Shown in pieces: positions 44,391 to 64,000 of a DNA stretch of 64,000 nucleotides. Location: contig NZ_SPUW01000002.1 in the NCBI RefSeq assembly GCF_004959925.1, forward strand, positions 558,001 to 622,000. Reading direction: 5' to 3'. The stretch is from Pseudooceanicola onchidii. GTDB taxonomy: Bacteria; Pseudomonadota; Alphaproteobacteria; Rhodobacterales; Rhodobacteraceae. The notes below the pieces were generated by a model that saw only the letters and a list, made by a program, of their open reading frames with translations, had not been told where the DNA came from and did not search any database. A program made the translations under genes and the position numbers. Every line of letters begins with the position of its first letter. The stretch's first letter is position 1.

Positions 44391-45332
44391 ATGAACTGGA
44401 TCACCAACTACGTCCGCCCGAGGATCAACTCGATTTTCTCGCGCCGCGAAGTCCCCGAAAACCTCTGGTCGAAATGCTCGGAATGCGGAACGATGCTGTT
44501 CCACCGCGAGCTGGCCGAGAACCTGAACGTCTGCACCTCGTGCGGGCATCATATGGCGATTTCGCCACGTGACCGGTTCAAGGCGCTGTTCGACGGCGGG
44601 GTGTTCGTCGAGGTGAAGGTGCCCGACCCGGTGGCCGACCCGCTGCATTTCCGCGATCAGAAACGCTATCCCGACCGGATGAAGGCGGCGCAGCGCGACA
44701 CCGGCGAACACGAGGCCATGCTGGTCGCCGAGGGCGAGATGGGCCAGACCGGTATCGTCGCCGTGGCGCAGGATTTCTCGTTCATGGGCGGCTCCATGGG
44801 GATGTACGTCGGCAATGCGATCATCGCCGCCGCCGAACGTGCGGTGAAGCTGAAGCGGCCGCTGGTGCTGTTTTCCGCCGCCGGGGGCGCGCGGATGCAG
44901 GAAGGCATCCTGTCGCTGATGCAGATGCCGCGGACGACCGTGGCCGTGCAGATGCTGAAAGAGGCTGGTCTGCCCTATATCGTGGTGCTGACGCATCCCA
45001 CGACAGGCGGCGTGACCGCATCCTACGCAATGCTGGGGGACGTGCAGATCGCCGAACCCAATGCGCTGATCTGCTTTGCCGGGCCGCGCGTGATCGAACA
45101 GACGATCCGTGAAAAGCTGCCCGAAGGGTTCCAGCGGGCCGAGTACCTGCTGGATCACGGCATGCTGGACCGCGTGACCAAGCGGACCGACATGCGGGAC
45201 GAACTGATCACGATCACCCGGATGCTTCTGGGGCTGCCGCCGGCGGTCAAGGGCACCCTGCCGAAACCCGAGGCAGAGGCCCCCGCGATCGAAGCCCCCG
45301 CCACGCCGGCCACACCGGGCGCCAAGAAGTGA
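44391..45332 (+). CDS. accD: Acetyl-CoA carboxylase carboxyltransferase subunit beta
   Basis: 313 residues. Forms malonyl-CoA with AccA for fatty-acid synthesis. The N-terminal zinc ribbon is complete (CSECG at about 29-33 and CTSCG at about 48-52), and the crotonase-like core has GGSMGMYVGNAI and SAAGGARMQEG. The C-terminus has an Ala/Pro/Glu-rich tail (EAEAPAIEAPATPATP), variable in the family. Start MNWITNYVRP is the standard family N-terminus. Its stop overlaps the folC GTG start. Confidence 0.95.
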   Translation: MNWITNYVRPRINSIFSRREVPENLWSKCSECGTMLFHRELAENLNVCTSCGHHMAISPRDRFKALFDGGVFVEVKVPDPVADPLHFRDQKRYPDRMKAAQRDTGEHEAMLVAEGEMGQTGIVAVAQDFSFMGGSMGMYVGNAIIAAAERAVKLKRPLVLFSAAGGARMQEGILSLMQMPRTTVAVQMLKEAGLPYIVVLTHPTTGGVTASYAMLGDVQIAEPNALICFAGPRVIEQTIREKLPEGFQRAEYLLDHGMLDRVTKRTDMRDELITITRMLLGLPPAVKGTLPKPEAEAPAIEAPATPATPGAKK

Positions 45333-46612
45333 CCTCGCCGTCCTCGGATGTCATCCTTGAACGGATGATGTCGCTGCATCCCAAGGTGATGGACCTTGTG
45401 CTGGATCGCGTCTGGCGGCTTCTGGACGCGCTTGGCAATCCGCAGGACCGCCTGCCGCCGGTGATCCATATCGCCGGCACCAACGGCAAGGGATCGACGC
45501 AGGCGATGATCCGGGCCGGTCTGGAAGGGGCGGGGAAACGGGTGCATGCCTACACCTCGCCGCATCTGGCACGGTTTCATGAACGCATCCGTCTGGCCGG
45601 GGACCTGATCACCGAAGCGCATCTGACCGAAGTGCTGGACGAATGCTATGCGGTGAACGGCGGCGAACCGATCACATATTTCGAGATCACAACCTGCGCC
45701 GCGATCCTCGCGTTTTCGCGGACGCCCGCGGATTACACCCTGCTCGAGGTCGGGCTGGGCGGACGGCTGGACGCAACCAACGTGGTCGCCAAGCCCGCGC
45801 TGACGGTCATTACTCCGGTGTCCATCGACCACACCCAGTACCTTGGCAACACGATCCAGGCGATCGCCGGCGAGAAAGCCGGGATCATCAAGCGCGGGGT
45901 GCCTTGCGTTGTGGGGCCGCAGATGGAGGCAGGCCTTGAGGTGATCGAGGCGACCGCCGAACGGCTGGGCGCGCCGCTGATCGCGCAGGGCCAGCACTGG
46001 CATGTCTGGGAAGAACGCGGTCGGCTGGTGTTCCAGGACGAAACCGGACTGCTGGATCTGCCGCTGCCCGCCCTGCTCGGGGCGCATCAGATCGACAACG
46101 CGGGCGCGGCGCTGGCGTCGTTACGCGCGCTCGGCTTCGGCGAAGATGCTGCCGAAGCCGCGATGACCCGGGTCAGCTGGCCCGCCCGGATGCAACGCCT
46201 GCGCGCCGGTCCACTGGTCGAGGCCGCGGGCACTGCCGAACTGTGGCTGGACGGCGGGCACAACGCCTCGGCCGGCGAAGCTTTGGGTCGGTATCTGGCC
46301 GGACTGCCGGATCGCCCGACGCACCTGATCTGCGGCATGCTGAACACCAAGGACGTGCGCGGATACCTGCGACCCCTGGCAGCGCAGGCGGCGTCGCTGC
46401 ACGCTGTGTCCATCCCCGGAGAGGCGGCCACGCTGTCAGCCGAGGAAACCGCAACCGCCGCGCGGGACGTCGGTATGGTCGCAACCGAAGCCGAAACCGT
46501 TCGCGCGGCGCTGGATGACATCGTGGCGCAGGACCCGCAGGCCCGGATCCTGATCTGCGGTTCGCTGTACCTGGCCGGTGAAATTTTGCGCGAAAACGTG
46601 CAGCCGGGTTAA
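45329..46612 (+). CDS. folC: Folylpolyglutamate / dihydrofolate synthase
   Basis: 427 residues. Adds glutamate to folates, and in bacteria usually also makes dihydrofolate from dihydropteroate. The Mur-ligase P-loop HIAGTNGKGSTQAMI lies near 49-63, followed by YTSPHLARFHERIRL and GLGGRLDATN. The C-terminal domain has WLDGGHNASAGEAL. The GTG start overlaps the accD stop (GTGA), the accD-folC order seen in many alphaproteobacteria. No terminator with a T-run follows; a separate promoter lies 70 bp downstream. Confidence 0.94.
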   Translation: MTSPSSDVILERMMSLHPKVMDLVLDRVWRLLDALGNPQDRLPPVIHIAGTNGKGSTQAMIRAGLEGAGKRVHAYTSPHLARFHERIRLAGDLITEAHLTEVLDECYAVNGGEPITYFEITTCAAILAFSRTPADYTLLEVGLGGRLDATNVVAKPALTVITPVSIDHTQYLGNTIQAIAGEKAGIIKRGVPCVVGPQMEAGLEVIEATAERLGAPLIAQGQHWHVWEERGRLVFQDETGLLDLPLPALLGAHQIDNAGAALASLRALGFGEDAAEAAMTRVSWPARMQRLRAGPLVEAAGTAELWLDGGHNASAGEALGRYLAGLPDRPTHLICGMLNTKDVRGYLRPLAAQAASLHAVSIPGEAATLSAEETATAARDVGMVATEAETVRAALDDIVAQDPQARILICGSLYLAGEILRENVQPG

Positions 46613-46655
46613 GGCGAAGTTTCAAAACTGCGGGGCTGCACAAAAAATGTGGTCC

Positions 46656-46713
46656 GATTCGTCAAGAAACGAATCGCAACCGGTTGACCGATTCGCGATG
46701 ATTCGCCTATCTT
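46656..46713 (+). promoter_or_regulatory. Sigma-70-like promoter with four clustered GANTC sites
   Basis: TTGACC (46684-46689) and TATCTT (46708-46713) with an 18-base spacer. GANTC sites occur at 46656 (GATTC), 46671 (GAATC), 46690 and 46700 (both GATTC); the last two lie in the spacer 10 bp apart. The first two form the dyad GATTCG-8-CGAATC. GANTC is the CcrM methylation site, and GcrA activates promoters with such sites near -10/-35 in related bacteria. No coding sequence follows. Confidence 0.6.
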
Positions 46714-46719
46714 GGGTTT

Positions 46720-46849
46720 AGTTGTTAGACAGGCAATCCTCCACCCGGGACCTCCGCCCTCACGTCTTCATACACGCGGCAGTCTGAATATCGGTGGTGT
46801 TTAGAAATACGTCGGGCACAATATGAGGGGGCCGATTCAACGGTCCCCC
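46720..46849 (+). ncRNA. Candidate small RNA downstream of the GANTC promoter
   Basis: About 130 bases without a credible ORF lie between the promoter and the zapE 3' end. The predicted transcript has two pyrimidine-rich CCTCC segments (CAATCCTCCACCC and GACCTCCGCCC), which are anti-Shine-Dalgarno-like. It ends in a hairpin (GGGGGCCG with CGGTCCCCC, one bulge, 46827-46849). There is no T-run. It could instead be antisense to zapE mRNA or a leader with no gene. Boundaries are estimates. Confidence 0.4.
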
Positions 46850-46864
46850 AATTGTGGCGCAGCG

Positions 46865-47935
46865 TCAGTCCTTCCCCCAGTCCGCATCCTGCATCTCGCG
46901 CAGGCGGCTTGCCGTACGTTCGAATTCGAACGCGCCGTCACCTTCGATATAAAGCGATTCGGGTTCGTCCGCGGCCGAGCAGATGAATCGCACCTTTGCC
47001 TCGTAAAGCGCGTCGATCAGCGTGACGAAGCGCTTTGCCTCGTTGAAGTTCGACCGGCCGAGACGCGGGATATCCTCCATGATCAGCACGCGCACGGCAT
47101 CGGCGATGGCCAGGAAGTCGCCGGGGCCCAGCATCTGGCCGCAGACCGCGTGGAAGGTCGTCCGCCCGACGCCGTTGCGGTAGGCGGGCAGCGTGACCTG
47201 ACGCCCCTTGACGGTCAGCACCAGCGGTTCGCCTCCGCCGCCGGTCAGGTCTTTCCAGATCGCGTCGATCTCGGCCCGGGCGGCGGCATTGGCGGGGGTG
47301 AAGTAGACCTTGCTGCCGGACAACCGGTTCTGCCGGTAATCGCGGGGGCTGGCCAGTTCGTGCACCACCAGCCGGTCCTTGATCAGGTCGATGAAGGGCA
47401 GGAACAGCTGCCGGTTCAGGCCGTTCTTGTACAGGTCATCCGGCACCCGGTTCGAGGTCGTCACGATGACCACGCCCCGGTCCATCAGGGCCTGGAACAG
47501 CCGTCCGACGATCATCGCGTCGGCGATGTCGGTGATCTGCATCTCGTCGAAGGCCAAGACGCGCAGGCCGTCGGCCACCTGTTCGACAACGGGCGCAAGG
47601 CTGTCTTCGACATTGGCCTTGCGCGCTTCGTGCAGGCCTGCCTGGATTTCCTGCATGAAGGCGTGGAAGTGCACCCGCCGCACCGGCACGTCGAGGCTTT
47701 CGACGAACAGGTCCATCAGCATCGACTTGCCGCGCCCGACCCCGCCCCAAAGGTACAGCCCATCCGGTGCGTCGACCTGCGTCTTGCGCCGGAACAGGCC
47801 CCGCTTTTCGGGTTTCGCCTCAAGCCCTGTGAGGATGCGGTCGAACTCGGCCAGCACCGCCTCCTGGGCGGGGTCGGCGTGCAGCTCTCCGGAGTTCAGG
47901 CGGGCGGTGTAGAGATCGCGCATTTTCTGGCTCAT
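46865..47935 (-). CDS. zapE: AFG1-like ATPase, cell division protein ZapE
   Basis: 356 residues. A P-loop ATPase that associates with the FtsZ ring in E. coli and is homologous to mitochondrial AFG1. Walker A GGVGRGKS lies near 64-71, HFHAFMQEI is the family signature, and Walker B is LAFDEMQITD near 127-136. TSNRVPDDLYKNGLNRQLFLPFI is also diagnostic. It is a single gene with a GC hairpin after its stop. The MFS gene starts divergently 131 bp away. Confidence 0.92.
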   Translation of the reverse strand: MSQKMRDLYTARLNSGELHADPAQEAVLAEFDRILTGLEAKPEKRGLFRRKTQVDAPDGLYLWGGVGRGKSMLMDLFVESLDVPVRRVHFHAFMQEIQAGLHEARKANVEDSLAPVVEQVADGLRVLAFDEMQITDIADAMIVGRLFQALMDRGVVIVTTSNRVPDDLYKNGLNRQLFLPFIDLIKDRLVVHELASPRDYRQNRLSGSKVYFTPANAAARAEIDAIWKDLTGGGGEPLVLTVKGRQVTLPAYRNGVGRTTFHAVCGQMLGPGDFLAIADAVRVLIMEDIPRLGRSNFNEAKRFVTLIDALYEAKVRFICSAADEPESLYIEGDGAFEFERTASRLREMQDADWGKD

Positions 47936-59345: not shown

Positions 59346-59434
59346 CGGTATCTCCTTCATTTTGTTGAACCATGGCGGTTTGGCGGGGGTGAGGCCAGCA
59401 GACTCGACTCCCGTTCACGTGAGGTTTATCTTTG

Positions 59435-59449
59435 GAACATATCATGAAC
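59435..59449 (+). promoter_or_regulatory. LexA (SOS) box before imuB
   Basis: GAAC-ATATCAT-GAAC, the reverse-complement form of the alphaproteobacterial LexA box GTTC-N7-GTTC, lies 17-31 bp upstream of the imuB ATG. It is an exact match to the consensus. The leader after the box is very short. Confidence 0.85.
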
Positions 59450-59465
59450 ATTACCTGACCGACTC

Positions 59466-63702: not shown

Positions 63703-64000
63703 TTATCTATGTGTGGTGCCGAAATCTACGTCAAGAGTCTGCGAATCATCTTTTAACCGGCGTGAAACCCCTTGTAGCCAAGACATTTGTGACTCGGTTT
63801 CGATGGCCTCGGCGAAATGGCTGCGCACCAGATCTACGGCGTCGGGCAGATCCATCCCGTCATGAAGCAGCACGTTGGCCGCCATCAGCCCCGACCGGCC
63901 GGCGCCGTGTCGACAGGTGAAGGCCACCGTCCCGCCGGTGTTGGGCAGATCTTGGCGCGAGGCCAGAAGATCGTGCCACCGGCCTATCGTGGGGTCGTCG
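63703..64000 (-). CDS. Tyrosine/dual-specificity phosphatase, C-terminal part (cut by window edge)
   Basis: About 98 residues of the C-terminus are visible, and the frame stays open to the right edge. The phosphatase P-loop TCRHGAGRSGL (C-X5-R) is present, followed by a helix (MAANVLLHDGMDLPDAVDLVRSHF). The residue before the catalytic Cys is Thr rather than the common His. The loop resembles bacterial phosphatases close to the DSP/PTP-like group. The start lies outside the window; a GTG at 63927 is internal. Substrate unknown. Confidence 0.75.
   Translation of the reverse strand, partial: DDPTIGRWHDLLASRQDLPNTGGTVAFTCRHGAGRSGLMAANVLLHDGMDLPDAVDLVRSHFAEAIETESQMSWLQGVSRRLKDDSQTLDVDFGTTHR

Follow-up and report, generated by a model that had tools for sequence, protein, structure and literature searches.

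The gap between folC and zapE in Pseudooceanicola onchidii raises the question of why four GANTC sites, the motif methylated by CcrM, should crowd around a promoter that no evident gene follows. A first-pass annotation of the 64-kb stretch of DNA analysed here (the window) had taken the arrangement for CcrM/GcrA control of an orphan promoter whose target would be an RNA. Our analysis indicates that the cluster is probably the regulatory part of a predicted small noncoding RNA gene, itself the remnant of an emptied operon. The features on which this reading is built are as follows (window coordinates).

45329 to 46612, plus strand: folC (TIGR01499, 366 bits), its end directly before the promoter
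46656 to 46660, unstranded: GANTC site 1 (GATTC), left dyad arm, about -65 from the predicted start, YGAKTCK type
46671 to 46675, unstranded: GANTC site 2 (GAATC), right dyad arm, 13 bp before TTGAC, filled in 50/57 promoters
46684 to 46689, plus strand: -35 hexamer TTGACC, promoter match
46690 to 46694, unstranded: GANTC site 3 (GATTC), first spacer position, filled in 50/57 promoters
46700 to 46704, unstranded: GANTC site 4 (GATTC), also a spacer site, 10 bp downstream of site 3, filled in 34/57 promoters
46708 to 46713, plus strand: -10 hexamer TATCTT, promoter match
46719 to 46849, plus strand: predicted noncoding RNA, ∼130 nt, with its 5′ end placed from the -10 and its 3′ end placed from the hairpin, matched by the covariance model at 46723-46856
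46730 to 46735, plus strand: 5′ CAGGCA motif, conserved RGGCA type
46813 to 46818, plus strand: 3′ CGGGCA motif, conserved RGGCA type, shortly upstream of the hairpin
46827 to 46848, plus strand: terminator-like hairpin GGGGGCCG-attcaa-CGGTCCCC, with covariation among relatives and lacking a clear T-run here
46865 to 47935, minus strand: zapE (NF040713, 401 bits), convergent with the predicted RNA

The window contained 65 GANTC sites against 300 in dinucleotide shuffles; the motif is thus avoided here, in agreement with its description as normally sparse. The four sites at 46656-46704 (49 bp) formed the tightest group of four in the window, the next, once these were left out, spanning 268 bp, and a cluster this tight arose in 0.08% of 20,000 draws when 65 sites were placed uniformly. 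Avoidance combined with an intergenic cluster is in line with the pattern given in the accessible part of PMC3973325, namely that GANTC is depleted in the genomes of alphaproteobacteria and enriched in their intergenic sequence. Sites 1 and 2 make up a perfect 8-bp inverted repeat with a gap of 6 nt. Sites 3 and 4 lie, as first described, 10 bp apart within the 18-nt spacer of a sigma70-like promoter match (TTGACC/TATCTT), the only promoter-like match in 46500-47000, where shuffles gave an expectation of 0.3. All four sites fit YGAKTCK, the extended GcrA consensus given in the available portion of PMC7987155, as did 20 of the 65 sites window-wide, these four included. A fifth site, at 46834, falls on the terminator-like hairpin. 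Elsewhere in the window, two abutting GACTC sites and a third occur within 65 bp at 59401-59465, close to where two divergent open frames begin and not of the array type, and three GANTC sites fall within 61 bp at 63735-63795, close to the window's end.

The statement that no ORF follows the promoter was borne out, in that the folC-zapE gap wholly contains just one listed frame, a 30-aa TTG frame (46712-46804). From 46823 a further frame, of 373 aa, extends antisense through zapE; a frame of at least 150 aa starting in the RNA was found in just 9 of the 21 genus genomes, that of the window among them, with differing starts, and was therefore taken as chance in GC-rich DNA. A hidden small protein was accordingly rejected, the 28 predicted transcripts having no common ORF and the antisense frame not being consistently open. 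In relatives the order was folC, a GANTC array, TTGAC, a GANTC-bearing spacer, the -10, then 96 to 142 nt of sequence closed off by a GC-rich hairpin, and zapE, and across 28 loci the 96 to 142-nt stretch held no ORF common to all. The middle of the RNA was highly variable. CAGGCA was present in 23 and CGGGCA in 19 of the 28 RNAs, against 4.0 and 3.2 expected from shuffles, the 28 RNAs being related. The hairpin showed compensation at stem positions 5 to 8, with one non-standard cell of 176 among 22 distinct hairpins, a count biased toward covariation by the choice of stems for pairing. A T-run followed the hairpin in several relatives; in this genome there was no clear one and a strict terminator scan gave no match to the hairpin, so the 3′ end of the RNA is a predicted one, and the hairpin may possibly be shared with zapE on the opposite strand. 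The idea of RGGCA as an exposed loop was not supported by folding, which predicted the motifs to be no more unpaired than the rest (0.45 vs 0.47). Rfam at gathering thresholds gave 0 matches in the 64-kb window, and a literature search, conducted largely without subscription journals, returned nothing on this RNA or on a GANTC promoter behind folC by title or abstract start.

Conservation of the predicted RNA was assessed with a covariance model built on 22 predicted transcripts, 21 of them found via the promoter and one (L136) via zapE. The model matched in 21 of 22 Pseudooceanicola genomes, the sole miss being a 66%-complete genome, which agrees with the original expectation of an RNA target. 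At least three GANTC sites stood in the 100 bp upstream of the RNA in 20 of 21 genus genomes, with a mean of 4.24 compared with 0.069 per 100 bp elsewhere in the same loci; at a contig end in G004, the RNA was kept with just one site. In G010, which was not in the set used to build the model, zapE lies ∼12 kb away and the RNA, with its hairpin and GANTC promoter, is still found behind folC. By ZapE, the three named loci nearest to that of the window all come from Pseudooceanicola. The gap sequence alone was insufficient to recover such loci, since blastn matched only 8 of 60 genomes, all Pseudooceanicola, and relatives' loci were recovered through ZapE orthology and the RNA model. Across the 394 genomes of the family, the model gave matches in 146 with E no higher than 0.1; matches below ∼25 bits were not counted as RNA, as those among the matches listed covered the hairpin end only or were thinly spread over the model, some of the weak hairpin-end matches listed falling on both strands of one hairpin. 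RNA-only loci were also present in genera other than Pseudooceanicola, among them Thalassovita and Shimia.

The promoter was additionally traced by the pattern GANTC-N8-TTGACNGANTC, which was found in 36 of 394 family genomes as opposed to 7 for a reversed control pattern; folC was within the stretch in 22 of the 30 loci fetched, and some of the 8 without it look like chance matches. Among 57 distinct promoters, 50 had a GANTC site 13 bp ahead of TTGAC and 50 had one at +6; position +16 was occupied in 34 and position +11 in 8. These counts describe layout and not frequency because the promoters were selected for GANTC in the spacer and upstream. Spacer positions 13 and 14, between the GANTC sites, carried almost no information. 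The outer site of the dyad, 27-28 bp before TTGAC, was filled in 16 of the 57, so that the upstream dyad of the first-pass annotation, perfect in this genome, proved the least conserved part of the array, the remaining sites between folC and zapE being conserved in relatives as had been proposed for checking. Among 80 named loci, the folC end was visible in 60 (59 distinct), and 17 of these 59 had TTGAC with GANTC in the spacer; the promoter is thus absent from many genera. The genome itself contained 8 matches to TTGACNGANTC, compared with 11 for the reversed control, and only the one at this locus sat in a dense array, six of the other seven having no further GANTC in 220 bp and one having a second site ∼60 bp on.

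Several lines of evidence make putative CcrM/GcrA control of this promoter likely. The genome encodes GcrA (PF07750, 162 bits) and a CcrM with a PF01555 methylase and RAMA domains. The match of this CcrM to the solved CcrM 6pbd begins at residue 14 and reaches the end (E 9e-169), and its score with the NCBIfam CcrM model is 632 bits, under the cut-off of 830. A stricter form of the promoter occurred in 2 of 385 genomes of the class, here and in a genome of another alphaproteobacterial family (G489), where GAATC and TTGACCGATTC-N5-GATTCG stand directly before ccrM (L258); the CcrM encoded there is 58% identical to the one in this genome (E 7e-151). The ccrM gene of our genome is itself preceded by a related layout (L140:614-652), with GANTC 15 bp before TTGACC and at +8 and +19. 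These arrays before ccrM are the best circumstantial evidence that such arrays may be promoters of the CcrM system. In Caulobacter, according to the accessible part of PMC3667746, GcrA binds methylated GANTC and protects the -35 to -10 region of ctrA P1, and changing GANTC to GCNTC lowered several promoters by 60-80%, though not every tested one. A link from the RNA to gcrA was considered and set aside, as no CTGCC, TGCCT, or TGCCC was present in the 260 nt around the gcrA start.

In other genera of the family, the same promoter lies right behind folC and is followed by a leader of ∼40 to 75 nt, a rhodanese gene, a LysM gene, and AGGCA with a hairpin. The description of the promoter as orphan therefore did not hold: a conserved predicted RNA with a hairpin lies downstream of it here, and two protein genes lie behind it in relatives. 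The first protein has a rhodanese domain (PF00581) and a signal-like N-terminus, the second has its LysM domain (PF01476) at the C-terminus and a hydrophobic stretch at the N-terminus, the N-terminal features being read by eye from the protein letters. The gene pair was seen between folC and zapE at L209:1588-3094 and like loci in several genera, and the literature search returned nothing on such a pair at this position. The rhodanese had no match in 19 of the 22 genus genomes, that of the window included; of the other three, two carried a 47%-identical relative elsewhere and one gave a weak match. The hairpin at the 3′ end of the operon is of the same kind as that of the RNA and in most cases lies near zapE.

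The last 45 nt ahead of the hairpin contained RGGCA in 27 of 28 RNAs, 10 of the 28 having AGGCA, and all 8 operon 3′ UTRs carried AGGCA. As controls, none of 14 other terminator-like sites in the window had RGGCA, and of 61 in the named loci 7 had it (AGGCA in 4), these control sites having required a T-run that was not asked of the RNAs and operon UTRs. The 3′ module of RGGCA plus hairpin thus appears specific to the RNAs and the operon 3′ UTRs. Leaders of the operon, of which the script extracted 10 from 16 loci tried, contained CTGCC in 8 of 10 (0.57 expected), most predicted to be largely unpaired, and this CTGCC is complementary to GGCAG of the 3′ module. The same motif was absent from all 28 RNA-only transcripts. 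On the grounds of this complementarity, GGCA motifs may act in trans on CUGCC loops.

The reading we favour is that the RNA represents an operon emptied of its genes that has kept its promoter and 3′ module, judging from its operon-like position, its 3′ module, and coding remains in one genome. In that genome (G419, locus L216), the promoter and terminator-like hairpin are intact and the frame between them ends IRIGQGRTIPAL, compared with IRIGQRLTIPAL in an intact LysM protein; these remains were read by eye and were not reported by tblastn. We interpret the locus as a decaying operon stage with the remains of a LysM C-terminus, which would place a loss in that lineage. A ZapE tree of 97 rows placed the RNA-only state in Pseudooceanicola (19 rows, SH-aLRT 97), in Shimia/Cognatishimia (8 rows, 98), and also among operon-bearing rows, so that at least four changes between operon and RNA-only states are needed. 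The rows include loci taken from the promoter pattern, and state frequencies are accordingly not representative; many forks are weak, and counts of changes on this tree do not separate gain from loss. In Pseudooceanicola, we infer the direction of change to have been from operon to RNA. One chromosomal place offers the operon intact, the operon in decay, and the RNA by itself, so that the change from an mRNA to a noncoding RNA can be traced.

Four other readings were weighed against this one. The reverse order of events, in which the RNA came first and other genera later acquired the rhodanese-LysM genes by insertion between promoter and hairpin, would fit both the flanking of the genes on either side by promoter and 3′ module and the indifference of the tree to gain and loss; we regard it as unlikely, given that the coding remains in L216 point to loss in at least that lineage and that CTGCC is present in 8 of 10 operon leaders (16 loci tried) yet in none of the 28 RNAs. 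A decaying relic, with recent loss of the coding genes and a promoter and UTR still uneroded, has a visible example in L216, and many genera are without both genes and promoter. It is very improbable here, however, since the RNA-only state extends over 19 Pseudooceanicola rows whose ZapE identity to that of the window falls to 73-75%, the site array is kept in 20 of 21 genomes, and three to six GANTC sites are hardly to be expected in unselected sequence at a background of 0.07 per 100 bp.

The remaining two readings concern function. The array could be a methylation-sensitive DNA site (e.g., for replication timing), the hairpin the terminator of zapE, and the RNA inert, as would suit the poorly conserved middle of the RNA, a hairpin that could serve both strands, and RGGCA motifs not predicted to be especially exposed. 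Against this, TTGAC is kept along with the GANTC sites, CAGGCA and CGGGCA are retained far above shuffled expectation in these related RNAs (23 and 19 of 28 vs 4.0 and 3.2), and RNA and hairpin persist in G010 with zapE 12 kb off; we hold an inert RNA to be unlikely. It is quite improbable that the promoter is a plain sigma70 promoter in which GANTC is fortuitous and CcrM/GcrA control is absent. Spacer bases are normally free for sigma70, and here the spacer retains GANTC in a fixed phase and the bases between the sites vary, among 57 promoters chosen for their sites and among RNA-anchored ones too, and all four sites are of the YGAKTCK type. For a plain promoter speaks the rarity of GANTC in ctrA promoters of this order relative to the other orders examined, as given in the accessible part of PMC8116508.

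On the preferred reading, the ancestral operon would have consisted of promoter, leader, rhodanese gene, LysM gene, and 3′ UTR, and the coding genes would have been lost while promoter and 3′ module were kept. Sigma70 polymerase, aided by GcrA on CcrM-methylated GANTC in the spacer and just upstream of the -35, would start at ∼46720, and the RNA would run for ∼130 nt to the GC-rich hairpin before zapE. By analogy with Caulobacter, its synthesis may depend on how the locus is methylated and, through that, keep step with replication. Transcription, methylation, GcrA dependence of the promoter, and action of the RNA in trans via RGGCA are all inferred from sequence. The fuller proposal, that the operon was emptied in several lineages and that selection kept the methylation-dependent promoter and the 3′ UTR because the latter was already a regulatory RNA whose GGCA pairs with CUGCC loops, is put forward tentatively, at somewhat less than even chances. 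If true, the RNA would be an autonomous, replication-timed descendant of an mRNA. The locus also offers a compact, conserved test promoter for CcrM/GcrA methylation timing in the large marine roseobacter group and argues for a second look at such control there, the literature search having found little on GcrA/CcrM promoter control in this bacterial family.

Comparison with known systems shows both likeness and difference. The GcrA/CcrM-dependent sigma70 promoters of Caulobacter mipZ, podJ, tipF, and ctrA P1, as described in the accessible text of PMC3667746, have GANTC in the promoter as here; the mipZ promoter has two juxtaposed sites there, whereas the promoters described here have three to six at largely fixed positions, and all four drive protein genes, whereas the promoter here precedes a predicted product without an ORF. 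Caulobacter CcnA is likewise an alphaproteobacterial noncoding RNA and is tied to the cell cycle, but according to the available part of PMC8959179 it is putatively activated by CtrA and acts through a CCCC loop on the ctrA and gcrA leaders, a description that sets it apart from an RNA with a GANTC promoter and RGGCA motifs. UdsC and UpsM of Rhodobacter sphaeroides, from the same order as the host here, are UTR-derived sRNAs that, as far as the accessible descriptions go, stem from mRNAs of existing genes, whereas at the present locus the coding genes are gone and the operon promoter is kept.
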